A stretch of DNA of 64,000 bases from positions 27,551,615 through 27,615,614 of the forward strand of contig NC_091947.1 of assembly GCF_041260155.1 (NCBI RefSeq), written 5' to 3'. This document shows positions 15,426-63,973 of this stretch, piece after piece; position 1 is the first letter of the stretch, and each line of letters starts with the position of its first letter. This DNA is from Ptychodera flava (taxonomy: Eukaryota > Hemichordata > Enteropneusta > Ptychoderidae). Made by a program: the position numbers and the translations under genes. The notes under the pieces are model-generated. The model did not search any database. It had not been told where the DNA came from and saw only the letters and a list, made by a program, of their open reading frames with translations.

Positions 15426-15525
15426 ATGATTGCGAAGTTGGTAGTGTTAACGTCGTTCTTTGTTGCAGTAACCCATGGATTCAACAAAGACGAATGGCTT
15501 CGTAATGCAGGAACTCAAGATCCAG
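15426..15525 (+). CDS. Exon 1 of VioB-like gene: signal peptide
   Basis: The ATG at 15426 opens a hydrophobic leader (MIAKLVVLTSFFVAVTHG) followed by a polar stretch. The exon ends in phase 1 at a CAG|GTATTG donor. It has no counterpart in the bacterial proteins. A TATA-like ATATAAAA lies only about 15 bases before the ATG, too close to be a normal promoter box for this start. Confidence 0.82.
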
Positions 15526-18500
15526 GTATTGATAGATTTAGGAGCAATATCCACATTCAACTTTCTCAAAATAGCAACCATTTTTTTTCTTTAATTTACT
15601 TTAATATTTGAGGCTTCGGAGACCGAGTTTATACGTCGGAAATTATTTAGCTCATATTTTTAAAATGTTACAACTGGTGCTTGCATTCTTTTCCCAGTTT
15701 AACGCTGAGCCAGTGTAAGTTACTATAGAGCACAGTTAATATCAAGTGAAAATCCGCATGTTGTTATGACTTTGGTATGAGTATATAATTAACTAGAGAT
15801 AAGTCGGCAACAACAAAAGTCGCTCTAAACTACGTGGATTGCCGAGCCGGATGAAACGAACTGCTTTGGATGCCAAGACTCGACGTCCGTTAGGCAGTAG
15901 TTGAAAACAATACATCAATACAGAAGATAAATGGTAACTTCAAGGTCCGGAAAATAAGCGAGTGAGATCCTTCGCACGCTTCGACTTCATGTAAGGTTAC
16001 TATGAAGTCATTGTAAATCGTCAAAACCAAATTCAAAAGACTAAAATATTGAACAATAGTTAGGTGACATTGTGACTTCATCCTTCTCCATAAACGCTAA
16101 TACATAAGCGATAAACAACCATTACAACGCAGTAACTCATTTCTTTAACCAAAGCACAACTATATACTCACTACAACGCGAAGATCAATCTCTGTGATAG
16201 TGAGAACATATTAAATGATCACTAGATATCTCTATGTTTTAAACTTTCCCATAAGTCAAAGAATACGTTTTCCAGATACGGAGACTGTTATTTCTACCGT
16301 TGAAAGAATACCAAAGTCGCATTATCATGAAGGTACGTCACTCCACCATTGAAGAAACACCGATGTCATCGTCTCTTTTGAAATGCAAACATTTTGGCAT
16401 TGACCTAAGTGAAACGTGGCTGGAGCAAGTTGATAATGCATCAATATATATGACGTCTTTTCTTATAATTTCCTTTATAAACGTAGAAACAGTTCTGAAG
16501 GTGGAGGCGTTGATCTTTACCTACACGAATCATCATCATATACCGTAATTGACTCAGTTTTACTCTGTCATTGCGAATGCATTTTTGTTGAAACTGTACT
16601 TGATAGGCCACGGTCATAATAGATGTTATCTACCACAAACAAAATACGCATCCTCAGAAAGGCCTGACCATCGACGATTGTCATGTAAATTTCCAATGTT
16701 ATTCCATTAAAGCTGGCACTATTGAAATTCATATAAGTGACCTCTATCCCGTTTTTGCCATTTTCAAAGGAGCTACGTCATGTGTTCAATGTCAAAACGA
16801 CTGATTACAAGTACGACTGCTGCTCTTTCGATTCAGTCTAATTCAGGGTTGATTTGGCTAATAATTTATAGTCTGATTTTAAAATTGAAATGATTCAAAT
16901 GCTGCTTACAACACTTGTTATAATTTTTGCACATGGCTATTTAGACAAATGCCGATCAAACGCCTATGTCTAAGAATACGCTCCAAAAAATCAAAAGATG
17001 ACAATAATCCTGGCAACGTTGTCATGAAAAGCATAGATGCTGCTGACGCACGCTGCTAATGCTTTAAAGTGGCTTCACAAACAACATGTAGCACTAATTT
17101 CAGTGATTACCTTCATGATCGGTAATCTCATTCGTTCTTATTTCACCCTGTTCAGCCATTTGATATAGTTAATAATAATCCATTATATTACCGTGCTCTG
17201 TCCATTGCACTTCAATTGGTCGAGCTGAACCGCGTGACTGCAAACAAATACACTGTAATGATTTGTTTAAATGCCCGTGAATATGAATAATATCGTAAAC
17301 ATAGTAACTTAACAGCTAAAATGAAAATTGTGTTTTGTACAAAGATTATAATCAATCACAAAATAAAATGGAGCACTTGTGGGCTAAGTTTAGACACTTT
17401 TTTCGAATAAATCTCCGGATTTGCAAAGTTTTTGCAGCGCGCACTACTCACTGACAAGTTCTGGGGCCCCGTTGTCGTTCGCACGGGAAATTTTCGTAAA
17501 TTTTGAGGGGTTCGTTGACAATATAATGGAAATAACGGATGACACGCTGACCATTAACGTTTATTTATGGACGAGGGCTCGAGGAAAGCCAAAGTCAATA
17601 ATTTTTGGCTTTCTTCTCGCCCTTGCCCATAAATAAACGTTAATGGTCAGCGCGTCTTCCGTTATTTCTATAATAGATCCTTATAAAGCTCAAGGCTTTG
17701 ACGGAATATACCTCAGATTTGTAATATAGGCAGTTGAATATGAATTAAAAACCATGTATGAGCAAACCCGTCCAATGCAAGAAGTCTTGTCATATCCAGA
17801 TATATTACCACTGGACCAAATCCTTTGAAATTCTGATATTCAGTGCAGCATTACTGACAATTATTCACATACCGACATTCCTGGGATCGGATTCACAAAA
17901 TGTAGATCTGCGTACTTTGTGTTTTGTCAGTTTCCTAACAAATGTCTATTCGTGTCGCCTATTCCCTGTAAAAGGACTCAAGTTTGCAAAAATCAGCTTG
18001 TGAAATAATCAAATGCATAATCATTGGGAATTGGTCTTGTCGATTAAAGTGCCCATACATGTACTAGGTATTATAACGAGGGTCCTTCAAGTAGATATCA
18101 CAGTTACTAGTGACCATATAGCCATACGGGAGTTACCGATTAGGATCAAATAATGACTAAATAATGGCTTAGATCACTTGTCCAAAGATTTTACAAATAC
18201 CAACAAAATTGTTTGGTGTTAAACTTGTAATGCTTTATGTATGTTGCAGTGTCCAATATTACTGTTAACAGCTGAAGGCCTGTGTTTATTGGCATCAATG
18301 TTGTCACAATAATATTGCAAAATGTTCCTTTAGAACAGATAATAATAAAAATTTTATCAAAAGTAACAAGTATTGCCCCCTTAAATACGTTGTTTGTGTC
18401 TGCCTGTAATTGAATAGACGTTCTTAAATACGTATTGTGTCTGTCTTTAATCGAATGGAAGTTTTTAAAATCTGTCCAGATGTGAGATACTGCCAGATCT

Positions 18501-21500
18501 TTTATACATTGAGTAATGGAAAAACTGTGATTTAAACACACAGAGAACAGCAGTTCCTACCTCGACTGGCCTCGGATCCACTTCTCTGGCAGCGTTTTGA
18601 CCGACGTGCCAACTGTGAACAACTTAGGCAAGAACTTCGACATTGACACATTCGATGAAAGGCTACGAGAAAATTCGTCTATTCTCGGATACAGCCCTGG
18701 TGGCTCAGGCAGTTTTCAATTGAAAGCATGTGAAGTTTCTTCAGTCTGCTACAGCTTCGGAGAATGCACCACCCATTTAGGAGAGGACGCACTCATAGGA
18801 GCAGACCTTCTGAGTAAGTACATTCTTCTGAGTAAGTACATTGTACAAGGCAAAAGAGAAATATTGGTTAAGTTGCGGGGGAACTTGTTTTGAATCCTAT
18901 CACAACGACAAATAGCAGTAAACCTGGTATTCGCAATGATTATTCCTTGAAATGTTCTTCTTGTTCTTGGCTTCATGATATTAAAAACACACAAATGGTC
19001 CTATTTGGAAAGCTATTGTGTTATGACTAATATAGCAACAAAAATATTGGAAAAGCTCTAAAAGCCAGACATGGTTTTAGACATTAAAAAACTGATATCT
19101 TCAAGTTCAACATCAAGTAAGGTAATTTAACGTTGCAAACCTTTTATAGGCGTTGCTTTGCTTTAAGCGCACGTGTTCACACACGTGAGCTAATGTCGTA
19201 CCGATGTCTGCGCGCGCGCGCGCGCGTGTGTGTCTGTCGGTGTACACGATAACTCAAGAACGCCTGAACGGATTCAAGTCATATTTGGTAGACAGTTAGC
19301 ATATGCTAATGGCAAGAACTTTTATAATTCTATTAGTGTGGCTTGCATATTGATGAAGTTGTGAAACATCAATTTTCACATAATGGCTTCCTATGGAGAA
19401 AGTGATGACAGTGTTTACATATATGAAGACATACTGCACAAAATTTCATCAAACTTTTCACTGATGATAATCTCAGACCGTTATGATGATACTGCGAGTG
19501 TCATGTCAATTATCTGCTCCTTCGCATATTTAATGAACTTTTGTAATTAGTGACATAACTCCGAAATTTGTATACCAAATTTGACAATACCTGCTACAAA
19601 TATTGATCTGATAGATGTAATTGTACTGAGAAGCATTGAGCAGTATCAAGTTAATGAACAGCTCATTTGCATATTTAATGAAATTTTGTTATTAGTCATA
19701 TAACTCCGAAATAAATAACTGCCTCAAATTTGATGAAATCTGCTGCAGATACTGATCCGACGAATACCTCACTGTGTTATGAAGCATTTGGTTGTGCAAA
19801 GTTAATGAGGGGTTCTTTTGCATAAATCAATGGTTTTGTAATTTGTGATATAACTCTGAATTATGGCACCAAATTTAGTGAAACCTGCTATAGATATTGA
19901 TCTGATTAATACCTAATTGTCGCGTGAAGCACTCAGCAGTATCAAGTTAATTAAGGTTCATTTACATACTCAAAGAACTTTGTAATTTGTGATATAACTC
20001 CGAAATTACAGAATTAAATTTGATGAAACGTGCTACAGATGTTGATCTGATAGATATCTAATTGTCCCATGAAGCATTGAGCAGTGTCAAGTTAATTAAC
20101 AGCTCATTTGCATATTAAATAAATTTTGTAATTAGTGATTTAACTCAAAAAGAGGGAAAAATCATAGACCCTCGAGAACGAGGGTCTATGGACAAATCAA
20201 ACAAATTTCTAAATCAATGTATGCCCACAATTCTTAAAACAAATGTTTTAGCAACAAGTCACTACTTTCATTCATATATAACACTTGTTCAATTGCTACA
20301 AAATCCACAATTCATATGATTTACTTTTTCTACTCAGGAGCGTGTACTACGAAATGAACCTATAGTATACCACGTGGGCACATTCAGTTCACATGTGGTT
20401 ATTATTTTTATCTTGTACTTCAAGTGCAGACGATACCACACTTCATGTGTCCAACAAGTCTTTAAACACCATATCTACTTACTTGAACACCGATCTGCAA
20501 CGAGTTGAATATTGGTGTCTAAGACACCAATTCAGTTAGTTAGTTAGTTAGTTAGTAAGAATCTTACCGACAAGTTATGTATCGACCCCAGTGAAAACAA
20601 AATCAATGATCATACAATTTTGTGGAAGAGAGGTACATAGACACTGATAACTTAAACCTCCTCCTTGTTAAAAAGTCGTGATTCCGTCTAACAAGACAAG
20701 TTATTAAGGGCCACCATTACTAAGAACTTAGAATGGTCCGAATATATCTTAATTTAAACAATATCGATTCTTAATTGTTTCTATTAGCATGTATCAGAAA
20801 ATGTCTTCCTCTCCACTATAATGTTAATGTTCCTTTTTACCAAGCATTAATTACTGTTCAAATGTTTGAGACTTTACTGCTTGTAACAATATCTATGCCT
20901 TTGGGCATCTATAAAAACGTACAATAAGACTTATTCTTGACACTTCACCATCTTTTCCCACTCGTCAGATGTATACTCAGCTTAATTGGTTTCTGATTAG
21001 CTTGAAACTTAGACTGAACAGCTTGACCCGTTATATACAAAGCAACTCATAATTTAATTCCTTATTATACAATAGTTTCCGCCAACCTGAACCTGTTAAA
21101 GGATTCTCCGAGCATGTAAAACACGTCATCGAAACAGTTTGTCTGTTACAGGTGTAGATGAATACGACCATACAACCACAATCACTCAATCAAGTGCCAG
21201 AAATCGCTTTGTGTAGTTGCCATGATACAACCTTCTCCCCAAAATAATCAGCACTCTATTTACTAGCCTGGTTCTTCTTAAGTTTCCCTGCTTTTCATGT
21301 GTTTCCAATTTTTATCTGTCTGTTGCCTCTCTGCTAGGCGACTGATGCCGTATGGTGTGAGTTATTAATAATTTCTTTTTCCACCATAGCAATAGTTTTA
21401 CTTGTGAAAACGGCACAGACTGTATGACACGATCCATCAACTTTCTCACCTACCGATACTTCTTGATCTGAAGCCAGTTTCATTCTTTTCGATTTCTCCA

Positions 21501-24110
21501 GGTAATATCGACCATTCCCAGGCAAAGATAGTAGATCTGGACCCTGCGTACCAGCAAGCATCGACTATTTTTGGATTAACACTCCACATACCAGGTTTTT
21601 TCAACGCCCGTTTACTTGAGGCAGCAATAAAAGATTTGTTTAAGAAGAAACCTGGAGCTAAACACTTTGGAGTCTTTGGGTCAGACTTCATGTCTTTACT
21701 TGTTGATGTAGAATGGGAAAATGATGTGAAGGACTCCCAGATTGTAAGTGAGTTCAGAGACATTGCGTTCAAAAGTTCCAACCCACATGTTCTTTCCATA
21801 AAATTTAACATCGAGGTTGACTACTCTGGGTCTAATTTTGAGTCTTCTGGGCCTCAGATAGGTAAAATAGTCGGTACTATAGGCCTTGCTGGAACTGCCG
21901 AACCTTTGCATGCTCTCCGTCATCGACAACTCACACCTCTTGAAGGCGACAATCATTTTGGCAGGGCTTACTTTCGAGTGTTCAAAAACCGACAAAAACT
22001 TCTGATTGACCTAGCAAATGCTATGAAACATAACCTTATGGGACTTCCAGACCCAGACTTGAATCACATTCTGCAGATTGCCTATCCCTCAGGTACCGCA
22101 GATCCTAGAAGCTGCAAAACAGAAGTCACGGTTGTTGGCCAAGTTAACTATACAAGGAAGTTTTGGTATCAGCATACTGCAGGTGTAATTTCAGTGCCCG
22201 AAACGACTGTTCTGACGTTAAAGCAGCTTGATGAAATATCAAATCGGCCACTTATGATCCGACGGTTGGACACGCAAACTCTCCAGTGCGTACAAGTCAT
22301 CCTTGCCGAAAGGAGAGACGGAAAAACAATCGATTTCATGGGGGACGGTATATTCAGACAAGACCCGGGGGACACCTGGCACGTTTACGCTTTCGCGACC
22401 CAATTCGGCAGACCCCTTACCGAACCCTTACAGATAAGAAGGGCGAAATTGGTCGATGTAAACAATGTCTCAGATGATACAATAGCTGTCAATCAACCCG
22501 CCAATGCTATACAATACTCCAATATGAAGGCAATGGGCAAATATGGAATAGCTGTTTTTAATTTCACAGGAAAGAGTCCCGGAAATCCGAGAAGAATAAT
22601 TGATGGACAGATATATCTTTTTGACATTCAGGCCAACGTTAATAATTTGGTTACTTCGAATCACCCGATAGTTGTGCGCATGTACGATGACTTCAGGGTA
22701 TCATCAGGAGGGCCTACATGGCATCAGGACATTTATCCGATATTCAAATTATATGCAAATATGTTTCCCAGCATGACAAGTATCATAAATTTAGCCTGTT
22801 ATGAAGACGTACGACGCAAGACTAAAATGATGAAATTGGCAATGAGCTTGCCATTCACAGATCCAGCATATATGCCGGTAACAAGAGATTTATCAAGGCA
22901 GAAACAGCAAGCTATACTGAAATGGTTAGACAACCCAAAGATTGGTAACTCAGTTACATTGAGCCTGGAAGAGTTGAAAAAGAACCTTCAGATTGCCCTT
23001 GAGATTGAGCTAGCTACCATACCTCCCTATCTAACTGCGTGGTTTTCTATCAAGGAAGGGCACAATCAGCAAATATCAGAAACTCTGAGGAGTATTGTTA
23101 TCCAAGAAATGCTACATATGACTTTAGTAGCGAATATTCTAAACAGCATATGCGGGAACCCAATTTTGGACAACGTTGGGGTTATACCTAAATACCCTTC
23201 AAAACTCCCAGGTGGGGTCCATCCCCATCTCACTGTTTCTCTTGGCAGACTCAGCAAAGGTCTCATAGAGGACGTGTTCATGAAGATCGAGGAACCAGAC
23301 GACACTCTTCCCATTACCTTGCGCCAAACAATGCTTCATGATGATCAATATGAACCAGAGCGTGACCCAGTCTGGCATCATCACCATAATACAATTGGAC
23401 AGTTTTACTACAAGAAGATATGGCAGTTACTCAGAGACCTTGCTAGAGTAGATGAAAACTTATTCAATTGTGGAAATAATAACACGCAGATCACCAAGGA
23501 TGACTGGTACAGTAACATTGATGAAACACCATCTCCTGTACGCAATATTAAAGATGCAGGAAGGGCGATCCATAAGATCATTATGGAGGGAGAAGGTAGT
23601 TCCCCAACCAACCCATATGACTCAGAAGGAGAACTCTCTCATTATTATAAATTTTTGGAAATTGTGATAGGCAACAAAGTCGAAATTGGAGAGGCAGTGG
23701 GTGACGTTGAGACAATTGATGTCAAAGCTGCCGCAAATACATTGAAGTTCTGTGGCCGAGGTGATAAACTATGCCATCCGATGTCATACACTTTAACAGG
23801 AGAGAGAATGCCGTTTCATGATGATGGTATTTGGCCGATAATAAATGATCCCGAAGACCATAAATATCCTTCGGACTCTAAGGTCAAGCAACTTTCTGGT
23901 CTTTTTAACGAGGAGTATTCAAACTTGCTGCGGTGTATCCATGGAGCTTTCAACGGCAATCCACGGAGGATACAGACGTGCATGTCCATGATGGCGAGAC
24001 TTGAATCACTAGGACGACAATTGGTCAGGACTCCAATTGATCCAAATGGCGACCCTAACGTTGGTCCAAACGGTGCACCAACATTTGAATTCATTGCTGT
24101 CCAGGCTTGA
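15426..24110 (+). CDS. Secreted VioB/RebD-like ferritin-like protein (iminophenylpyruvate dimer synthase family), 4 exons
   Basis: Coding exons are 15426-15525, 16276-16332, 18544-18813 and 21502-24110. Splice phases match at all three junctions (phase 1 each time). The CDS is 3036 nt, or 1011 residues plus stop, close to the roughly 1000 residues of bacterial VioB/RebD. Residues 1-18 form a signal peptide. Similarity to the bacterial family starts at residue 58 with LDWPRIHFSG, then DVPTVNN (72-78) and VDLDPAYQQASTIFGL in exon 4. The C-terminal half is a ferritin-like four-helix domain. Its candidate di-iron ligands are E643/E645 (ALEIELATIPPYL), E678 and H681 (QEMLHM), and E853/H856 (GELSHYYKF). 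Bacterial relatives couple two tryptophan-derived imines in violacein, rebeccamycin and staurosporine synthesis. The animal substrate is unknown, and secretion argues for a different job. The family call is strong; the catalytic role is inference. Confidence 0.88.
16276..16332 (+). CDS. Exon 2 of VioB-like gene: 57-nt linker exon
   Basis: A short exon between a TTTTCCAG acceptor and an AAG|GTACGT donor. It is phase 1-1 and open in the frame set by exon 1, giving a polar 18-codon linker between the signal peptide and the enzyme-like core. Because it is symmetric (57 nt, phase 1-1), it could be skipped without a frameshift. Exon 1 could also splice straight to exon 3. Transcript data would decide. 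Confidence 0.65.
17522..17676. mobile_element. Foldback MITE in intron 2 of the VioB-like gene
   Basis: Arms of about 65 bp (GAAATAACGGATGACACGCT and its near inverse) are separated by roughly 10 bases. Core 17529-17668. No target-site duplication could be fixed. It would form a long hairpin in the pre-mRNA. Confidence 0.7.
18544..18813 (+). CDS. Exon 3 of VioB-like gene: start of the bacterial-like core
   Basis: The acceptor after CACACAG at 18543 gives phase 1 entry. The exon encodes LDWPRIHFSG, DVPTVNN and a stretch with three cysteines (KACEVSSVCYSFGEC), ending GADLL before the donor A|GTAAGTAC. An 18-bp tandem copy of the donor follows directly (see 18807-18842). Confidence 0.82.
18807..18842 (+). 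repeat. Tandem 18-bp duplication carrying two identical splice donors
   Basis: CTTCTGAGTAAGTACATT occurs twice, at 18807-18824 and 18825-18842. Both copies contain the donor A|GTAAGTAC in the same phase. Use of the second donor would add six residues (SKYILL) and keep the frame. The duplication is read directly from the sequence; alternative use is inference. Confidence 0.9.
19163..20400. mobile_element. Pearl/DINE-1-like element, copy 2, in intron 3 of the VioB-like gene
   Basis: It has the same hairpin (CACGTG TTCACA CACGTGAGCTAATG), a CG/TG-rich tract at 19210-19232 in place of GTCT, five monomers of about 145-150 bp, and an end at CACGTGGGCACATTCAG. A small extra palindrome, CATAGACCCTCGAG/CGAGGGTCTATG, sits near 20163-20190. 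Confidence 0.65.
20423..21230 (+). pseudogene. Decayed LINE reverse transcriptase, 3' part (CR1/jockey-like)
   Basis: Translation from 20423 gives CADDTTLHVSNKSLNTIS, then YLNTDLQRVEYWC. This is the YADDT catalytic motif region and following helix of non-LTR reverse transcriptases. Later pieces in shifted frames read like the thumb and C-terminal region. Many stops and frameshifts; not functional. It lies in the intron 3 of the VioB-like gene. Confidence 0.65.
21323..21362 (+). repeat. tRNA-like SINE head fragment, copy 1
   Basis: GCCTCTCTGCTAGGCGACTG followed by ATGCCGTATGGTGTGAG matches the fuller copy at 34118. The B box is not preserved here. Confidence 0.4.
21502..24110 (+). CDS. Exon 4 of VioB-like gene: 2.6-kb uninterrupted core with ferritin-like domain
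   Basis: The acceptor TTTCTCCAG ends at 21501, and GT completes the serine codon split with exon 3. The exon runs 869 codons to a TGA with no intron. It holds a middle beta-rich region of unknown fold, the conserved DIYPIFKLYANMFPSM segment (about residues 552-567), the MPVTRDLSRQKQ segment (about 600-611) that also precedes the ferritin-like helices in bacterial VioB, then the ferritin-like helices and a C-terminal helical tail. All the enzyme-like chemistry would sit here. Confidence 0.88.

Positions 24111-24439: not shown

Positions 24440-24489
<50 letters not shown>
24440..24489. repeat. (AG)n microsatellite, about 25 units
   Basis: Uninterrupted AG dinucleotides in the 3' flank of the VioB-like gene. 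Confidence 0.95.
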
Positions 24490-24492
<3 letters not shown>

Positions 24493-24706: not shown

Positions 24707-25970
24707 TACATTTAAGCAAACGAATAATATCCAGTCTTTTTAGAAAAATTGATGTTCCTACATTCTTTTGCACGAATATTGAACTAAAAGTTGTCATCAC
24801 GCAACCATTTTACTTTAAGGATTTTCCTGTTTGCCGCTCTTAGCCTGCACCACTCTAATTGAATACATACGCCAAAATTTTTTGCCGATTTTTTCAGACT
24901 TTTATATACTTTTTTCAACAAACGTCACTGTTTTGTGGTGGTTTAAATATTTTAACATTAAAATTCTGTCTACATTGAGTCCGCTCGTCATATGATTTCT
25001 AATTTCTTTAGTGAACACTGCGTTTTTCGAAAGGTTATTCCTGGCCTTTTGTCATACTTTGTTTACCTTATTTCATTGTCAGCGATGAACTAACATAGTT
25101 ACACAAATCATTCTGTTCTACCTGTTACGCCGATATGGCAATATAACGTTTTTTCTAAAGGAGCTGTCATTATTTACGGAAGACCTTTCAAATTGTGGTG
25201 TACCCTGCTAGATTATCATCGGTTATCTCATAACGACTGAAACAGGTGAAACCAACAAAATGAAGTTCAAAGTAAAAAAATACAGATATAAAATCTCATG
25301 CTATGACAAATACCCAACCATATAGCATTGTTTAATTTGGATGGGTATCATGACAGGGTCTTCACTAGGATATCTGACTGGGCAGAATTTGAAATTGAAG
25401 GGGAAGAACACGCGAGAGGCTGAGGGCGAAAGTGTCAGAGGGGATGTTCCCTATCTTGTGTGAAAATTTTTTAGAAATTGATGTGTGCAATGGTGTAGTC
25501 TGGTGCAATCCGAGAGGCGTTTTTCATTTGTTTTTTTTTCTAGGTAAAACTCTTAGAACATCCCAAGGAGGAAGGGCACAAGAGGGGGTCCCTTTTCTCG
25601 CATCGAAAGTTTTGACAAATTGATGTTTGTAATGGTGCTATTTGAGTGGTGTTTCAATTTATTTGGCACTCAGTAAAGCTGTTTGAAAATGACATTGAAC
25701 ACTGATATTTTTATTACATTTTTTGCATGATCAGTGTTTGAGTCACAATATTCAACAAGCGAACAATGACAATACATTGTGTAAAAAAACAGTTCTCTGT
25801 TTGCCATGAGACTGAAGAGCAAAGAATATGCAGGAATGGAAAATCTGCGGCCTTCTTGTGCCATTTGCAAAATCTTACATTTCTGTTAACGATATTAGGC
25901 GGACCATCAGTCGGAGTCAGTATTTTTCTAAGCTTTTCATTATTAGTTTGCAACTTCGCCGGCCATATGT
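24707..25970. other. Intergenic; small diverged tandem duplication at 25430-25650
   Basis: The duplicated block carries the phrases GAAATTGATGTGTGCAATGG and CAAATTGATGTTTGTAATGG, plus G-rich runs similar to those inside the Harbinger-like element at 34800. Otherwise nothing is recognised. Confidence 0.5.
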
Positions 25971-26719
<749 letters not shown>

Positions 26720-37700: not shown

Positions 37701-40700
37701 CAGTATAGTTAACAAACAAGGGGTTCTAAAAATAACCTATACCTGGGCCTCTAAGTTTATGACATATGAACATTATTTGTAAACATGAATGTAAATTAAT
37801 GCAAATATTTTACATTCATACACATAAATAATTTAGAATTATACAAATGTCCACTTATAAATGTAAATAAATTGAACTGCAGGAAAACTTGTTACAAACC
37901 TTCAGTTTCATTGAATTTCCTCTTTCCTGGTTTCAAATTTCCATCATTTGTTTGGTCTCCATCTTTGGTAATATTTTCTCTCTTTTTATCCTTCTTTCTC
38001 TTCTTCTTTGTGGAAATTTCAGACTCTGTGATGTTGCTCAAGGCTTGGTCCCCAGATTCTGTGTCATCAATTTTACGTTTCTTTTTGGTCTTCTTCTTTT
38101 TTCCTTCCTTCTTACTTTCTCCGTTTTCAACAGGTTCGTCTTCAGAGATCTGAATATCCTCCTGCATCACTCTTCTCTTCTTCTTTTTCTTTTTGGTTTT
38201 TTCTGAGCCCGCTGCATCAACGTCTTTTTCTATAGTTTGGTTCACACCGTTAACTTTATTTTTCTCTTTTTTCTTTTCTTTTCTTTCTTTCTGTCTTTCT
38301 CCATTTTCAACAGCTTGCTCATCAATGTTTGGTAAATCCTCCCTCACCTTCTTCTTTTTCTTTTTCTTGGAATAATCAGATTGAGTGAGCTCAGAGTTGG
38401 AATTTAAGGCCTGGCTAACTGTCACAGTTTCATCAATTTGATGCTTCTTCTTACTCTTCTTCTTCTTCTTTTCTTTCTTAGTTTCTCCATTCTCTACTAG
38501 TTTCTCGCCTTCCTTCGATTTTTTCGCTTTCTTCTCTTTATCCACTTTTTGAACTGTTTCATCTTCCTTGTCATCATGATCCCCATCCTTGTCTTTGTTC
38601 TTGACCTTGACTTCTTTCTCTTCCTTGTTTTCTTTTCCCTGTTGCGATTTCTGCTTGGCTGGTTCCTCTGACTTGCTAACTTCTGGCTTCTGTTCATTAA
38701 CTGCAGTTTCAGCAGCCTTGGGCTCAGACTTTGCCTGTACATACAGACAACAAATACACAAAAGATTATGTCAGATATATTCTTGATGATCTAAATGATA
38801 ACACATACATAAGCTGAAGAAATTCAGTGACAAGCTTGTGAAATGAACACATAGGTGAAAAGGTTACATGGACAGAAAAATACTTTACCCCTTCATGCAA
38901 AATCATTCTTTACACCTTACAACAAATTTTTCAATAAGTCACAAAGCAATATAACTATATCCGCAACAAAAGCAAGCAAATGTTCCAAAATTTTTAACCT
39001 GGTCACCCTCAATTCACTGTAAACAGGTCCAAAATCAACATACAGATCAATTTGTTTGGGTCAAACCATGATGTTACGGTGACTTGAATAATGCCAACTT
39101 ATCGTTTCTCATGAGTTGAAGTTAACACCATTCCACATGACAGCACAATTAGCAGCTGATGTTTAAATTTAGTGTGTCCAGAAGTTTCATTTTGTTGGAA
39201 TATGAGAGAGGTGATGTACTATGGGATGGTCTGGAGTCATTGCAACCTGCTATGGTGGGAATTGATAAGCCAATGAAGTTATACACTGATAATACAAACT
39301 TTAAACCATGGATCTGAAACAGGTACTGTCATCATTAGTGTGAGAAAAAAAAATACATTAAACTGTCATTTGTGAAGACTTGGCTGCAGCAATCAAAAAA
39401 TTTCACTTCCTGAATGATATTTACAAGGTGCTATTTTGTATTTTGTTGCAAAAACTAATATGTTGGTACTTTTTTACAGCATTTTTCTGAAATACATGTA
39501 CATACCACCTGAAAACTGGAAAAATGTGACACTTTAAGATCATTGAGATTAATTATAGCCAGTAAAACTTGCCAGATTGATTGTTCTTTTAATAAACGCA
39601 AATTTAACAAAAAATCCACTCACCTCACGATTTGCTGAATCAAAAATCTTCCAGAGTTCTTCACATGTCTTTTGATCAGTGACCCGTATACTGTTATGCA
39701 GAAAGTTCTGTAAAGGAATAGTCAAATAGGGTTTACAAGTCTTGCTGTTGTAGTGGCTGGCAGGGCCTTTAATGTTTGACTCTGACACAGAGAAGACCAT
39801 ATGTAAGAAGTATTGTGTGATGGAAAATTGATGTACCGTATTCCTCCTATTATAAAACCCCCTTTTCAGAACCAAAGGTAACGGAAAAGCTGTGGGGGGC
39901 TGTATAAACGGATGTCACCGCGAAATCGAATGCCGTAGTTAATTTATGCTAATTAATGCAATGTTATGCAAATTTTATGCCAATTTTTTTTTTAATTCAC
40001 GCGAGCACTGCAGACAACTCATACTTTGTGATATCGACTCATGGCCATGCTGCGTTGATACTGACAGTCAAATCTGTACGGTATTAATTAAAATTAATGG
40101 AGATCTACAAGTTTTGAAATTTAGCGTATTTGCCATAACCTCTTTTGCCAAACAATACGATAGCAATAAATGTTCGTATTTCGTGTATAGATAATCACCA
40201 CGATACTTCGTTGCGCTCCACAGCAGCAGCTTGCTCCCCATAGCATGGCCACAAAGGTCAGACAATGAGTAAAGGGAAAGTCCCTAAAGTTCCGCTGGCT
40301 GTGATTGGTCAATTCACGCAATAAGTCAAAGGTGTTAGTGCATGAGGTCAGGGTAAAGTTCTGTTCAGCACATGCATGTGGTGGTGTCCATCCGATGTTT
40401 TCTATTTACGATTTTCAATTAGCGTACTCCTTTAAATAAACGATCAACTACACGTTTATTTTTGCTCCTACGGTAGTTTCAAAAAGTGTAACCGTATCTC
40501 AAAACCAAATGTGATCTTACGAACAGGCAGGCACTAGGCTCGAACTGATAAAGTGTTGAAACATCGGCTGGCCATGGCCGAGACGAAAGATTGCTACGCC
40601 AATCTGCTTACGATTTGATGAATTGAATTTTTGGCAATAAATCTTTGAAGTTTTTTATTATTTGTATTGGTGAACGAAATGTCTCTTGATGTGGAATTCA

Positions 40701-52571: not shown

Positions 52572-52683
52572 TTCATTCTGTGCACTGGAGGTCGGCGGAC
52601 CACAGTAGGTAGGGTGTCGTCGGATCGGTCGGAAGAGAAAAACGCCGCACAACTACAATCACAGCTCTAACTGTGGCGCGAAA

Positions 52684-55471
52684 ATGAAGTTTCTCGCTCT
52701 GTTGATTTTGTCGATTGTCGGTATTTCGGCAGCCGACCAAGCCGAAGAGTGTCCACCCTGCAACTGGGAGGAATGCGAAGAGCGCGGTTGCAGATCATAC
52801 ACGTATGGTCACTGCGATTGCTGCTACGTCTGCGAGAAGATAGAAGAGGAGACGTGTGGGGGCGATAGGTTCGAACACGGCAAATGTCGCGATGGGCTGG
52901 TGTGCGAGAAAAAGCCAGGTGAAGAGGAAGGCGTGTGCTTGTGTACAGAACAGATGGGAAGTGTGTGTGGGTCGGACGATAAAGACTACACCAGCGTCTG
53001 CGAACTTCGTTTAGCGAATGAGAAGTTGAAGGCCGAGGGAAAACCAAGCGACATTGAAGTAAAAAACCAAGGCGCATGCCAAAGAGGTATGTTTTTATTC
53101 AGCCAACATAGATCTCATCGCGAACTCTGGCACAAGAATACCTTTTCCAGACCGAAAAGTTTTAATATTACTCTCGTTCACTGTACTACTGTGTACTGTA
53201 AATTATATCTCCGGTTATGACTGGACGCTGTCAGCCACACGGCTGGAACGGAAGTGCTACGTGTCATTCCAGATGCTTATTTGCATTTCAATTCACGTAG
53301 ATCCAGAGTTTTCACTCCGTCGGCGGCCTTAGGGGTGGACCATTTGAACTTCGACACTGTTTTGGCACATGAGCAAGTTCGCTGCTGTATCAGCCGTCTG
53401 GCAAAGGATTTAATAAGAGCAGCAATTTTCGTTAGCTTTGTCGTCATTTTTTTTTCAGTTTCTTCAAACCACTTTCTCTGTGACAGTGAACCTAATCATT
53501 TACATCCATGACCTAATTGTCCTTGAGCCATAATCGCTTTCCCTTCAGGGTTAACAAAGGCATGTTGATTCCGCAATCACACTGTGAATAGTTTTTGCAT
53601 AAAGTGATGGAGGCACTGTGGTGGGGGCAAGTTAGGGCCAGTGACCATAACTCTAGTAAGAGTAAATATTATCAATAGTCCTAGCTCAGGTGAAATTTCA
53701 TTGTGATAGGATCTGTACTCTAATAACTTTCGTGTCATTTTCTTTTCCGTTGAGTGCTCCTTCTTGACTTGCAAGACGTTGGTTTCACTTTTTCCCCAGC
53801 TCCAACCATAAAGGTGACCAACGAGAACTCGACCATCGAAGAAGTTTCCGGGGCAAACTTGTATCTGAGCTGCACGGCGCACGGTGTGCCAACACCAAAA
53901 ATCTCGTGGCATTTCAAAGGCGACGAACTGCCCGGCGACAACGACAACGTTCAAGTTCAAATGATGAGAGGCCGATCACGTTTCGAAACGAACAGCTTTA
54001 TGGTTGTAAGTAAAATTTTGTGACTCTGTAATTTCGTATTTAAATGTCACCATCTCGGAAGGTGTTAGCCCATTGGTTGGCTGAATCTTCACGGTTATGA
54101 CTGAATAATACAATTAGACTCCCTAAGTTGCCATGAATAGTGACAATCGACCAATCAGATATAACCTTCCGAGCACGCTGCACATCAGCAGACGTTAGGT
54201 GACCGGTGGTGGAATGTACCGCTGCAATGTTTACATAAAGCTTGGCCAAATGCATGAGTTTACGTCATTTTGTTGTACCATTGCTCACGTTAATGTTTAG
54301 AGCACTGGGATGTAACCTTGATATGTCCCTTTGCAATACAAAACTGAATAGTTTAAACTTTCATGAAGACGATATGGTAGAAGATATGGCCACGTAAAAG
54401 GGACAGAGCTTTTTATCATGGGTAAATGGAAGTTTTCACACACCTGACGTCTGGTAGTCTGCCAAACAAAGTAAAGTTAGTTCGCGTTCACAAAGGCTAG
54501 TGTGTAGTGTATGTACGGTAGGATTTGATTTGTGATTTGTTTTGTTTGTTTTCTTTCATCTTCCAGTTAGTTGTCCCTCGACCAATCGATTCTGGGAATT
54601 ACACTTGCAAAGCTTCGAATTCTAATGGCGAAGCATCCGAAGAAATTTCAGTCACCATACACCCAAACTTAAAGGACAAAACAGGTAAATTCCTCAAAAG
54701 TGCCACTTGTCACACGCAAGACAGGGAAACAGTATTAGTCCCTCCTAAAGTACTTTATTACCAGAATTGTTCAAATTCGTGTTTTTGTCAAGGAACAAAA
54801 AAAATCTCATTCTCTGCGAAAGTAGCTTCCTCGGCACTTTGGTGGCCAAGCCTGGTTTAGCAGAGAGAAAGCGATTCATGCAAGTCTATGACGCGCATGC
54901 GCAATAGACCTTTGAACGAACGAGGTTTCTCGCCACGTTCCCGTGTGTGGCGGGACTGTTTTAATTAATTCCGTACACTTACAAGAAGGCACGGTGTCGT
55001 CAGAAAGGGAAATCAGGCACTATGACTTATTTATTGTTCTTAATTGTACATGTACATTCGTCTGATAGGATGTTGATTCGGCTGGTAAGTTGCGGTAAAA
55101 GGTCAGTGAAATACGATTTACGCTGAAAAAAACTCAAAACATCTACAGAATTGTTGTTGAGTGATTTAATGATGCACTCATTTGCTAAAGGATGGCAATG
55201 TTAACATACTCTGATTAGTGAATAGTTGCATGTCTTTTTTAAACAGTGCTGAGATTTTCGAATGTAGGTATTAGATTCACAAATTTGGCACAGTTCGCTC
55301 CGTCTAATACAGAAGTTATCCAGTATCAAATAAAGATAGTGTAGCATTTGCCAATGGTATAATATCATCTTAGACTCTCCTCATCATCTAAACTCAGTGA
55401 CAAGTTTTTGAACCGTACAACAATTGTGATTAATACCATTCTCTTTTTTCATTTCGATTTCAGAGCTCTAA
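52684..55471 (+). CDS. IGFBP7-like protein A (IB-Kazal-Ig, secretory pathway, C-terminal KTEL)
   Basis: Exons are 52684-53086, 53800-54005, 54567-54684 and 55464-55471, with matching phases (1, 0, 1), giving 244 residues. There is a signal peptide at about 1-17. An IGFBP N-terminal domain follows with twelve cysteines (C23, 26, 31, 36, 44, 46, 47, 50, 58, 68, 74, 85), including CDCCYVC and CGG..FEHGKC. A Kazal-like domain (C87, C95, C106, C132; VCGSDDKDY) comes next. An I-set Ig domain is split between exons 2 and 3 (C159, W171, C217 in GNYTC). N-glycosylation sequons are at N144 and N214. This order is that of IGFBP7, IGFBPL1 and KAZALD1. The last coding segment adds only EL, making DKTEL at the end. 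Vertebrate relatives are secreted modulators of growth-factor signalling; KTEL hints at ER retention. Confidence 0.92.
55464..55471 (+). CDS. Terminal coding segment of gene A: completes KTEL
   Basis: Acceptor TTTCAG ends at 55463. AG CTC TAA completes the split glutamate codon and adds leucine and stop. The exon continues as 3' untranslated sequence to a poly(A) signal near 56103. Confidence 0.8.
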
Positions 55472-59100: not shown

Positions 59101-60722
59101 TGCGTAATTGATTTTAATAAAAATCAAAGGACTTGATGTATCTGACCGCGTTGCCTGTCGTCCACCGATACATCCACGCACGGTCCCTCGATGTGTATAT
59201 ACGAACGGACAAATATACATCAATATATTTCTAAAGCTTCTTGCCTGCAAATATTATGGTAGAACCCACGGCCCCTCCATTAAGGGACCGTGTAGAACCC
59301 TATCGTTTTGCGGAGTATCTGTGGGGAAATGTGTTGAAAATGTTTAAACAGTCAGTCGATGACGCAACATCTTGATATTAAGCTTCAGATGGAGCCCTTT
59401 ATATTTATTATGTCACAGCATTACTCTAACCTGACTAAAAGCGTCCTAAATCTATGTATGGCACAACACGTTTTTTTACGTCTCAGATATGTAATACTTG
59501 ATGAGCTTGGTTACAGATTTATAAGTCAGATTCTTCAATATTAAAAATTTTGGCATTTTCAAAACGCAGCAGCGGATATCAGTTGCCCCGCTAATTTCAA
59601 ATGGAATAGTTGGTGGCTATTCCCGAACTGACAAATTCATTTCAAATCTTGGGAATGCCACAGGTAGTAGATTGCTCCCAAGCCAAAGTTAATCAGGCAT
59701 GTCTGCAACAATAGACGGTGTGTCTATGCTGCAACCTATACCGACAGTCACTATGACGACAGATATATTGAAACCGCTGAAAGAGTTCACACTTTCCCAC
59801 CAATCACGTCCTGTATTTTGAAATCCTTTCATCGTTCATGTGAGATCATAGGGGTGTAATCTACTTCAGGGGTCAAGAGGTGACGAGCATTTATGGAACG
59901 TGTTATGTTCTGTATAACGTACTGTACTCATGGAGGTACAATAATTTCATGCGTCTACGATGAGACTTTACTATGGGGTTTCTTTTAGGTCCGGATCCCT
60001 TGGAGATAATGTGAGCGAACAGCAACATTGTTCTATATCAATCATTAATAATAAAATTACGCAACCAAGTGTTCAGTATTTACACAATTGAGTAGAAAGA
60101 GACTGACAAAAAATCATATTGACATGTGAACTCTTCATGGAGTTCAAACCATATGCATAGACCCTGGAGAAAAACTTCGAGGGTCTGTGTTCAAACCATG
60201 GAATGTTCGAACATGGATTTCGACCGTCTGTGGTCCGGGCAATAAACAGACAGTCCACTGTCTTGGCGAATAGAACGTCATAGAGCCTCTGCCTAGCAAT
60301 TGGTTACGAGCTGTAACTCCGCCGCACAGCGAACAAATGATAGTGAGCCTTTAGTCTCGTCCAGTTCCTATACTCGGTGTTCAGCTCAGTTGACTGCCAT
60401 GTCAACGCATCACTATCTTCGCCACATCCTCACAATCTTTGGTATCCATTGTTGTAACTCCATGCTTTATTATTGACAGAAGGTGTTTTGAACAGACCAA
60501 TCGGTACTTGAAACTGTTGGGTCAAGTTTGGGTCAAGCCTACTATTTATCTGGCCTTGTTCCGTGCAACAATTTCTTTTCTGGTATGGCCTCTGATTTAA
60601 AATCGTTCTGAATGTTGATTTGCTCCTTGTACACAACAACACAGCGTCGAACAGCCAGCGTCGGACCCTGAGCGTGAGCAACGCAGTACCGTTCTGGTAG
60701 CCTTGAATGCGAGTTTAGAAAC
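56131..60722. other. Intergenic between the two IGFBP7-like genes; two overlapping unrecognised minus-strand frames at 58440-58995
   Basis: The frames (58687-58995, then 58440-58694) are adjacent, overlap by a few bases and show no family motif. A possible acceptor (TCTCCAG) lies just upstream at about 58998. The rest shows no gene. It should include the promoter of paralogue B, for which no TATA box was found. Confidence 0.4.
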
Positions 60723-62133
60723 ATGAAAGTATTCCTTGTCTTCGTGCTGGCCTCTCTGTGCCTCGGTGCACCTCAAGAGGGTTCGGAGGCGGACGGAGAA
60801 TGCCCTCCTTGCAAGAAGGAAGACTGCCAGTTACGGAATAACTGCATGGCTTACGCTAAAGACGACTGTGGATGCTGCTTTGTGTGCCTACGAAGCGAAC
60901 AAGAAGCTTGCGGCGGTGAGAACTGGGACACCGGCAAGTGTCGGGAAGGACTCGATTGTTACATAAACCCCGAGAAAGAAGACCAAACTGAAGGCACCTG
61001 CATTTGCGTGGAGGACTCCGACAACCTATGCGGGTCAGACGATGTCGATTACAAAAGTATCTGTCATCTACAATGGGCCAACAAAAAATTAGAAAAGGAT
61101 GGTAAACCAGGCAACATTGAAGTTAAGAGTAAAGGCTACTGCAAAAGAGGTTTGTATGAATTATTTATGCGTAAAGAACCGGGGACGCTGTGATTCTCTT
61201 TATCGCCCATGGAGGAGCCAGATAGTTAAAACCCAGACTTCTTTCAAAATACAGTGTGTATACACGTGAAAATGTGCGCTTATCTTTTTTGCTCAGGTGT
61301 AGCGTCCATCTTTACTGTTATTTCCAGAGGTATAAAGGCTGAAAAGCAGACCGATTCCAGACGGAACTGCCACGTGTGACTTTCTGCATACCAATACATA
61401 CTTCCGGTCGCTTAGTATGCTAATAACCCCAATTGAACCCCGACGCATTCTTCAAGTTGCAGTGAAGGGCTGCCCTGCACTCGCCCCATGGGCCTATGCC
61501 CTACAATAGAAGAGATTTGTCGTATTTTGCCATCACCGTCTGACCGCGTAGGCTCCGTCCTCCACGGTCACTTCACTCAAATGTGCGCAATTCGCTCAAG
61601 ACCGAAGTTACCATCTTTCAAAGATGGAAATTGAGCCAATATAGCAAACGTATTTGGAATAGCATTTTAAAGTTCATCGTGTTTGGAGGTAGAAGCAAGA
61701 CTTTTTTTTCTACCTCCATGATAAGCTGATGTGCATAGACAGTTTTATGATCTATGATATGTGCAACTTCGCATGTTGCTCAAGGGCCTTATTTCCTAGT
61801 AGCCAGCATGGAACCTGGAAATCTGGTTGTTGTTGTTTGTATTGTTGTTTATATTTATATTCGTCGTGATTTTGTTGTTGTTCTTAATTATAGGAATAGA
61901 GTGTACGTTTGGACAGAGTTGCATTGGGTCAAATGATGTGTCCTTGTAGTGTTTCTTGTGACATCTACATTACGTTTGAAACAACAAAATAGTTATGTTC
62001 GTCGAATCTTATTTATTTATTTATTTATTTGCAAAGAAAACCAACGGGAATAAGTCAAACTTACAGGTTCCACAACAACAACGACAACAACAACAACAAC
62101 AACAAACATTGGGAATATAAAGATAAACAATAC

Positions 62134-62178
<45 letters not shown>

Positions 62179-63973
62179 CCAGATTTCTAGGTTATCTTTG
62201 AGTACCTTTGCATTGAACACAATTGGAACTGATTTGGGATAATTGGATTTTCATATTTTTCAAATTTCTCAAAAATGTTAGGTGCCCTAAAGCTGAACGT
62301 TGCGATATTACAAATTACTCATAAAAAAAGTGAAGTGTGTAACTTAAACAGAAAAGTAGCTGAACTTACATTTGCAGATCAAATAGACATTACTTCACCG
62401 TCAAATTATCCCAAATTAGTTCCAATCGTGTTATTGATAGGTAACCTCGACTTACTCCAAGTCTGTTGGCATTAAAGTATCAAAACATAGTAGACTGTTG
62501 CTTGGCCCAGCCAGTAACTCAGCTGCCGAGAAAAGCCAAGTGACTAGCGGCCAGTATATGCGTAACCTTTAATACTCCTAAAAGCAACATAAACGATCGA
62601 TCACGGGGTTGTTTGGGCTACGGCCTCAGGAAGACTAGAACGGGACCTCATACTGTTTGTACACTGCTTATATCACTCAGACCATGGGGATAGCAGCGGA
62701 GACCCAATACAACCTCAATGGAGGGTCCTCTGATGAAAGTAACCGATTTTCCTTTATTATCCACAGCCCCAACGATCAAAACACCGAATACCACGCTAGA
62801 CCATATAGCTGGATCTGAGATGTATCTGTTCTGCAAGTCTCATGGGGTGCCCACCCCTAAAATGGCCTGGTTCCAGGGTGATGAAGAGTTGCCCGGCGAT
62901 AATGAAAACGTTCAGTTGCAACTGATCAGAGGCAACGAACGAAATGAAATGATCGCCTACCTGATCGTAAGTACTCTTGCTCTCATACTTGTGACAGAAA
63001 AAAAATGTTTTCCATGCTAGCTTTCACATAGGCAGTACTGCTCCTGTTCTGAAAAAATGGCGACTATCTGCTATGGAGAACAGCAAAGAACAAGCAAAGG
63101 TGAAAATGTCACCATCTCCATGTCGTATTTTAATCAGACTACCGCTCCACCCCTGTTACCAGGGTTCTGTGACCTAAGTGCTGTTAAACTTATTGTTTGT
63201 GTGTGGATGCTGTTTACACAGATTCATGAGAATACAATAACCTAGAATTTATATTCATAGCGAGTTGCCCGAAATTTGTATGCGCATTCAGATGGCGACA
63301 AAATGCAGACCACAGAACAACGCAGAAGATACGGCTTTGTGTTGGATATTTTTCATATCATAGAAGAAATAATATTCAATTTTTCCCAGATCTAACATGG
63401 GTAACATGATTTTCTTTTTTACGTTTTCTCCACCCAACATCAGTTCATCGAACTGCGTCCAATCGATGCCGGAGAATACACCTGCACGGCAACAAATTCT
63501 GAAGGCGACGCCAAAGAAACTATTACGCTCAATGTTGCTCAAAACTACAAAACTGGTAAGTATGGCCTTGCCCGTAAAGCTAACCCGTGCCCATGAGTTA
63601 ATTTCAGTTAGATATCCCAAAATACTGTCTTTCATAAAAAAAATCTCCATAAATGATAAGTTATCAGTTATGGGTAAAATATTAAGTACGTGAACGATTG
63701 TAACAAAGTAACACATCTACAGTTGTGGCATTTGCCATATTGTGCTCAAGGATATGATGCCGATTGGTTTCATCATTTGTGTTTAATAGTCGTTACTCTA
63801 AATTTAATCCTTCCAGTGTGTGATGTATGATAACCTCTTATTTTCCTGTGAACCACCGTTTATGTGGCAAAAAAATTGTTTTGCCGGTACCATGCCTTCA
63901 GGGAATCACAAGGGGTGTGTGGACCCAGCACGTTCACTAACTTCTCTGTACCATTTCTTTTTCAGAACTTTGA
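60723..63973 (+). CDS. IGFBP7-like protein B (IB-Kazal-Ig, C-terminal KTEL), tandem paralogue of A
   Basis: Exons are 60723-61149, 62767-62966, 63444-63555 and 63966-63973, with phases 1, 0, 1 exactly as in paralogue A, giving 248 residues. It has a signal peptide (about 1-16), an IB domain starting CPPCKKEDC with DCGCCFVC, a Kazal-like domain with LCGSDDVDY, and an Ig domain with APTIKTPN, MYLFCKSHGVPTPKMAW, ELPGDNENVQ and PIDAGEYTCTATNSEGDA. It ends NYKTEL. Both copies share the GVPTPK, ELPGDN and PIDSG/PIDAG segments. The terminal coding segment ends 27 bases before the window end, so its 3' untranslated region is not seen. Confidence 0.92.
61809..62195. repeat. Inverted repeat around (CAA)n / (GTT)n tracts, in intron 1 of gene B
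   Basis: GAAATCTGGTTGTTGTTGTT near 61817 is mirrored near 62190, with both arms including GTTTGTATTGTT. The right arm has expanded to long CAA runs (62070-62178). Confidence 0.65.
62217..62431. mobile_element. MITE with ACACAATTGGAACTGATTTG termini, copy 2, in intron 1 of gene B
   Basis: Same family as 24551-24706, with about 60 bp of extra interior. The right end TTAGTTCCAATCGTGT mirrors the left. Confidence 0.7.
63966..63973 (+). CDS. Terminal coding segment of gene B: completes KTEL
   Basis: Acceptor CTTTTTCAG ends at 63965. AA CTT TGA gives Glu-Leu-stop in the same phase as in gene A. The codons differ from A (GAA CTT against GAG CTC) while the residues are the same, which suggests selection on the protein end. 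Confidence 0.8.

Follow-up and report, generated by a model that had tools for sequence, protein, structure and literature searches.

A probably secreted ferritin-like protein of the acorn worm Ptychodera flava from a bacterial family related to the VioB and chromopyrrolic acid synthases

The analyzed stretch (hereafter, the window) comprises 64,000 nucleotides of contig NC_091947.1 of the acorn worm Ptychodera flava and contains, at positions 15426-24110 of the forward strand, a three-exon gene encoding a ferritin-like protein of a bacterial type. The reality of the gene, its family, its fold and its age within animals are well supported, and a location of the protein outside the cell or in the secretory pathway is reasonably supported. 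As to function, the best explanation we can offer, with about an even chance of being right, is that of a secreted animal ferritin-like oxidase of a bacterial family that acts on an aromatic, perhaps indole, small molecule. To our knowledge, the superfamily of natural-product enzymes that includes VioB and the chromopyrrolic acid (CPA) synthases was previously known only from microbes.

An earlier note on this DNA, made from the sequence alone, had described an intron-containing animal gene at this position, with four exons encoding 1011 residues including a leader peptide. The position, the introns and the leader hold, but three joined exons yield 992 residues plus a stop, that is, a 2979-nt open frame, identical to P0001, an NCBI entry named 'uncharacterized protein [Ptychodera flava]'. 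The features of the gene are:

15426-15525, plus strand: exon 1, with the start codon, a hydrophobic leader (about residues 1-18, by eye) and a short linker
15526-18543, plus strand: intron 1, 3018 bases, phase 1
18544-18813, plus strand: exon 2, in which the N-terminal module begins (SYLDWPRIHFSG ... DVPTVNN)
18814-21501, plus strand: intron 2, phase 1, donor GA/GTAAGT, acceptor CCAG/GTAATA
21502-24110, plus strand: exon 3, with the remainder of the beta-rich N-terminal module, an Ig-like domain, the MPVTRDLS linker, the ferritin-like domain and the stop
22974-24095, plus strand: ferritin-like domain, as located by tblastn with the split bacterial ferritin-like protein from locus L002

Exon 1 is 100% identical to residues 1-33 of P0001 and ends in phase 1 at the donor CAG/GTATT, and both introns have GT-AG ends. 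The Ig-like domain (about residues 394-519) and the ferritin-like domain (about residues 607-986) both lie within exon 3. The paralogues P0002, P0003, P0005, P0006 and P0007 run without interruption across the exon 2/3 border (LLS/N, ILS/N, VFS/N, VIS/N), so that an extra exon in intron 2 is not supported; the P0004 model lacks much of exon 2 and is uninformative in this respect. Intron 2 contains two open 57-nt AG...GT stretches (19279-19335 and 19631-19687), either of which could be the origin of the 19 additional residues in the earlier count, and beyond these open frames, nothing else was found that favors a further exon. The sequence comparison thus indicates a real gene with three exons, not four.

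In the frame of exon 3, the PF12902 (Ferritin-like) domain was matched with 193.8 bits (cut-off 22.3; E = 4.9e-57), as the earlier note would have it, and the motifs listed in that note occur in the order it gave. The predicted structure likewise bears out the expected helical ferritin-like fold, with a structural match to PDB 3hl1, the short Caulobacter ferritin-like protein CC_0557, which shares the fold but lacks the N-terminal module. When a profile built from 53 proteins related to that of the acorn worm (A1) was compared with one built from 29 VioB/CPA synthases (A4), the two aligned over 844 columns that stretch from the first conserved motif into the C-terminal part (E = 4e-59, 20% identity). 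Yet with the NCBI VioB model TIGR04492 (cut-off 1250 bits), against which 20 true VioB proteins from 245 genomes score 1779-1908 bits, the acorn worm protein scores 17 bits, the weak match covering model positions 2-24 only, at the start of exon 2. Because the two profiles align along their full length whereas the TIGR04492 score is far below the cut-off, the likeness to the VioB/CPA synthases is true and full-length but remote: assignment to the VioB superfamily stands, and a match to the VioB family model itself does not.

The bacterial proteins nearest to the acorn worm protein belong to a separate, long-form family. Identity to the bacterial protein P0018 is 32% over nearly the full length, compared with a single patch of 143 columns at 27% plus a weaker one at the N terminus for VioB P0157; the median identities are 28% (N-terminal part) and 37-39% (ferritin-like part) to the long-form and split bacterial proteins versus 18% and 26%, respectively, to VioB. 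The VioB/CPA synthases (RebD, StaD, EspD, Tjp2) share with the acorn worm protein the N-terminal R..F.G....PT motif and six Glu/His residues, conserved by column counts and putatively metal-binding (E626, E659, H662, E720, E821 and H837), which are identical in 14 of 14 VioB/CPA rows. In contrast, S188, T629 and P631 are present in all 73 rows outside this group and substituted in all 14 rows within it, the positions of T629 and P631 being occupied by L/I/V and L; in addition, the first two ferritin helices of VioB are separated by an insert and, unlike the acorn worm protein, VioB has no extra N-terminal residues. The protein accordingly seems to belong to a sister family of the VioB/CPA synthases, which in bacteria is either fused (~900 residues) or split (~600 + ~360 residues). 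The TIGR04492 score and the separate clade described below rule out a VioB/RebD-type enzyme in the strict sense, which the earlier note had proposed; the reservation in that note about a possibly different reaction stands.

Most of the bacterial proteins P0061 and P0063-P0120 are ~600 residues long, match the N-terminal module only and have no precomputed Pfam domain; their module represents a still unnamed family of domains, whose fold is predicted with confidence. In addition, PMC7563238 counts PF12902 as one of the more frequent domains in vesicle proteins of Schistosoma haematobium; those proteins may belong to this family or may be ordinary ferritins under another accession.

Three phylogenetic trees were built: a 92-row tree (17 of the 18 named animal proteins, P0011 being omitted, 18 listed bacterial proteins, and 16 of 28 fused and 20 of 32 split loci); an 88-row tree, with ten rows taken out (UNK_P0060, BAC_P0055, L081 and L043 for long branches, six for thinning) and six added; and a third, careful tree of 39 rows. 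All three place VioB and the CPA synthases apart from the remaining proteins, on a fully supported branch 1.55-1.92 changes per column long. The animal proteins do not group with VioB, RebD and StaD. The animal proteins, including three copies from P. flava and those of Glandiceps, Saccoglossus, lancelets and the octocoral Dendronephthya, form one clade, which in the 88- and 39-row trees also includes the stony corals Oculina and Desmophyllum and which takes in the unnamed proteins P0015, P0016, P0056-P0059 and others (P0060 falls outside it in the 92-row tree). This clade is supported by SH-aLRT values of 99 (23 rows, 92-row tree) and 100 (26 rows, 88-row tree) and by 98/99 in the 39-row tree (13 rows), where eukaryotes and fused bacterial proteins may group together (85/64), on the non-VioB side with 100/100. 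Given the single clade, this is an old animal gene and not, as the earlier note supposed, an uptake by one animal. Within the clade, cnidarians and deuterostomes each have a supported group of their own, the pattern expected from vertical descent. The far wider diversity of the bacterial proteins and the bacterial outgroup suggest transfer from bacteria to animals. Our literature search found no publication on an animal member of the family.

The 12 bacterial proteins compared all begin with M/V-S-Y-L, one residue before the position of S38 in the acorn worm protein, such that S38-Y39-L40 corresponds to bacterial S2-Y3-L4. Intron 1 is located about three residues ahead of the bacterial start position, and exon 1 accordingly resembles a leader-coding exon set before a bacterial-type gene. 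Among all 15-residue segments of the protein, residues 1-15 are the most hydrophobic, and a strongly hydrophobic stretch near the start is present in all seven hemichordate rows and in five of the nine lancelet rows. Four cysteines (108, 328, 874 and 950) are found in 16-18 of the 23 animal or unnamed rows and in none of the 54 bacterial rows. Four relatives (P0008, P0011, P0017 and P0030) carry precomputed Pfam accessions that we take to denote F5/8C, fibronectin type II, LDL-A and EGF modules. The hydrophobic start, the leader exon, the animal-only cysteines and the additional modules jointly argue for an extracellular or secretory-pathway protein. The bacterial long-form and split proteins (from L002, L004, L011, L030 and other loci, many beside ebo genes) resemble the animal ones in their side of the tree and their motifs but start at the SYL motif, lack the leader and these cysteines, and are often encoded by two genes.

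The bacterial relatives were compared across 85 loci, namely, the best 80 of 555 from a scan of species genomes and five plasmid loci, with a short-form Rhizobium locus left out. Among these, 28 are fused, the form also seen in the acorn worm, 32 are adjacent pairs (~600 + ~360 residues), 15 are unsorted and ten uncalled. By clustering of open frames, the most recurrent neighbors are the ebo gene families: at least one is present in 21 of the 85 loci, at a distance below 1 kb in 18 of the 21, and at least four of the five families are present in 16. As a control, we used 245 genomes of the taxonomic family assigned to Massilia aquatica (L036), counting matches to the ferritin-like family with E up to 1e-40. 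The ferritin-like family was present in ten of these genomes and EboE in seven, with the family found in 7/7 EboE genomes versus 3/238 others and the two genes less than 10 kb apart in six of the seven. Without L036, L040 and L081, where both genes were known beforehand, the figures are 4/4 versus 3/238 (3/4 within 10 kb), with a chance probability of 2.5e-7 if kinship is ignored. EboE occurs in just one of the 20 VioB genomes and is distant from VioB there.

Among 398 genomes of the genus to which the Pseudomonas cichorii genome belongs, 53 carry EboE. Matches to A1 (E up to 1e-10) were obtained in 25 of these 53 (24 of 52 without G013, known beforehand) compared with none of 20 genomes sampled from the 345 without EboE, and 23 of the 25 lie within 10 kb of EboE. 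Four Pseudomonas ebo clusters (L127-L130) encode stand-alone relatives of the N-terminal module (~795 residues), a second one beginning in L127 at least, and a family of ~322 residues with a hydrophobic start and no Pfam match, which also occurs in 14 of 86 other loci, including some beside ferritin-like pairs. Through these clusters (that of P. fluorescens NZI7 is not among them), a likeness may extend to the EDB cluster of NZI7. Other neighbors include genes for LodA and LodB-like proteins, on the flanks of the family in 4 of 85 loci (checked with Pfam in L061 and L083), and, within the compared stretches of 86 loci, a P450 (6 loci) and a class I/II aminotransferase (4 loci). The actinomycete loci L039, L033, L029 and L032 combine the ferritin-like protein with an aminotransferase, which in L039 and L033 is joined to a methyltransferase; L039, L029 and L032 have a P450 as well. 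Their gene content points to an unexplored biosynthetic cluster.

Passages of the literature tie such neighbors to indole chemistry. The ebo cluster moves the indole-phenol monomer of scytonemin to the periplasm, and a full ebo cluster lies inside the EDB cluster of NZI7 (PMC6282210), which, per a review, turns external tryptophan into nematode-repelling indole compounds (PMC9655573). RebO and RebD convert tryptophan to chromopyrrolic acid (passage of PMC10784701), and a PF12902 gene is described near lodA in five fungal loci (passage of PMC4417212). The analogy to VioB/RebD, the amino-acid oxidase and aminotransferase neighbors in some bacteria and the link of ebo clusters to indole export suggest an oxidase acting on an aromatic compound, with indole a plausible substrate. 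The protein would be a two-part enzyme, with a beta-rich N-terminal module that includes the Ig-like domain followed by the PF12902 domain, in which E626, E659, H662, E821 and H837 (with E720 or E834) would hold iron, probably as a di-iron center like those of other ferritin-like proteins. The enzyme could use O2 or H2O2 to oxidize or couple an amino-acid-derived aromatic (an imine, keto acid or indole), in a reaction modeled on that of VioB/RebD with indole-pyruvate imine but in a pocket lined differently, by T629 and P631. Animals would have added the leader-coding exon ahead of the old start and, given that the bacterial enzymes are leaderless, the reaction would now proceed in the secretory pathway or outside the cell, with a likely role in chemical defense or pigmentation of mucus or skin.

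Several observations weigh against this reading. Four of the nine lancelet models, as well as P0015, have no hydrophobic start. The glutamate of the expected ExxH motif, E834, varies between rows, and a lancelet row carries K at position 626. In 64 of the 85 loci, including both Azospirillum plasmids, there is no ebo gene in the compared stretch, although some contigs are short. By tblastn, 16 of 86 loci have an ABM/glyoxalase-type gene, a frequency close to that of ebo, so that ebo is not the sole recurrent partner, and the partners vary. In Pseudomonas, the matches beside EboE are remote and confined to parts of the N-terminal module, and the four ebo regions read there showed no ferritin-like part. 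The LodA-type oxidases known to us act on lysine and glycine, not tryptophan. For members of the family outside the VioB/CPA synthases, our search found no literature report of activity, metal or substrate. In the window, no relatives of ebo, LodA, P450 or aminotransferase genes were detected at E 0.01 (VioA/RebO were not among the queries, and animal pathways need not cluster). Finally, enteropneust chemistry is also rich in phenols and quinones, so that an aromatic substrate need not be indole.

This last point leads to the best-surviving alternative, which we nevertheless consider unlikely, namely, the same fold acting on a phenol, a quinone or another non-indole aromatic or aliphatic compound, with the ebo-linked relatives serving diverse exported metabolites. 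In line with this possibility, ebo clusters are described in many phyla beyond scytonemin producers (passage of PMC6282210), the UbiA-type enzyme of an ebo cluster farnesylates quinoline acids (passage of PMC9235831), and enteropneusts accumulate halogenated aromatics (passage of PMC6315191, which cites work on brominated quinones of P. flava). The indole links (scytonemin, EDB and VioB/RebD), however, outnumber the others found. Even less probable is a secreted handler of iron or peroxide, a ferroxidase or catalase-like protein with no biosynthetic role: the ferritin-like fold and the H2O2-yielding LodA-type oxidases that adjoin some bacterial relatives are compatible with it, but the large conserved N-terminal module would be superfluous, both parts are kept as adjacent pairs in 32 of the 85 loci, and the P450, aminotransferase and ebo neighbors look biosynthetic. 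A true counterpart of VioB/RebD/StaD that couples two indole-3-pyruvate imines into a bisindole is, in our estimate, distinctly improbable: the full-length homology and the shared Glu/His set speak for it, whereas the TIGR04492 score, the separate clade behind its long branch, the substitutions at S188, T629 and P631 and the low median identities to VioB speak against it. Assembly contamination or a dead gene, for which nothing can be adduced beyond the bacterial type of the protein itself, is strongly disfavored to the point of being negligible, given the introns, the intact open frame, the placement of P0001 on a contig of 39134633 bases, with the paralogue P0002 listed on a contig of the same size, and the relatives in other hemichordates.

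Across the window, a search for pathway partners with 26 queries, two of them representing the family itself, matched this gene only. Long simple repeats lie shortly past the gene, at 25816-26370 and about 24440-24490 (ATAC/TA type and GA type). At 52609-54857 and 60678-63017 (plus strand), IGFBP-like and Kazal matches share one frame with an apparent leader, with Ig-domain matches downstream; these are probably tandem genes for secreted IGFBP-Kazal-Ig proteins. On the minus strand, 37895-38770 is open for 292 residues, many of them charged, and lacks a Pfam match; this frame need not be a gene.

The preferred reading, that of a secreted oxidase of aromatic compounds, can be extended to a more speculative one, which we regard as rather unlikely: an ancient extracellular bisindole or indole-oxidation pathway of animals, in which a bacterial enzyme, acquired before the cnidarian-bilaterian split and redirected outside by the leader exon, would make a repellent or pigment in acorn worms, lancelets and corals. 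If so, some indole and phenol compounds of marine animals would be made by the animals and not by microbes. Independently of that extension, the findings place a microbial-type natural-product superfamily in three animal groups, where it forms a gene family that is old, has duplicated and probably encodes secreted proteins, and they draw attention to an uncharacterized family of bacterial enzymes linked to ebo clusters. They also bear on whether acorn worms produce their own aromatic defense compounds.
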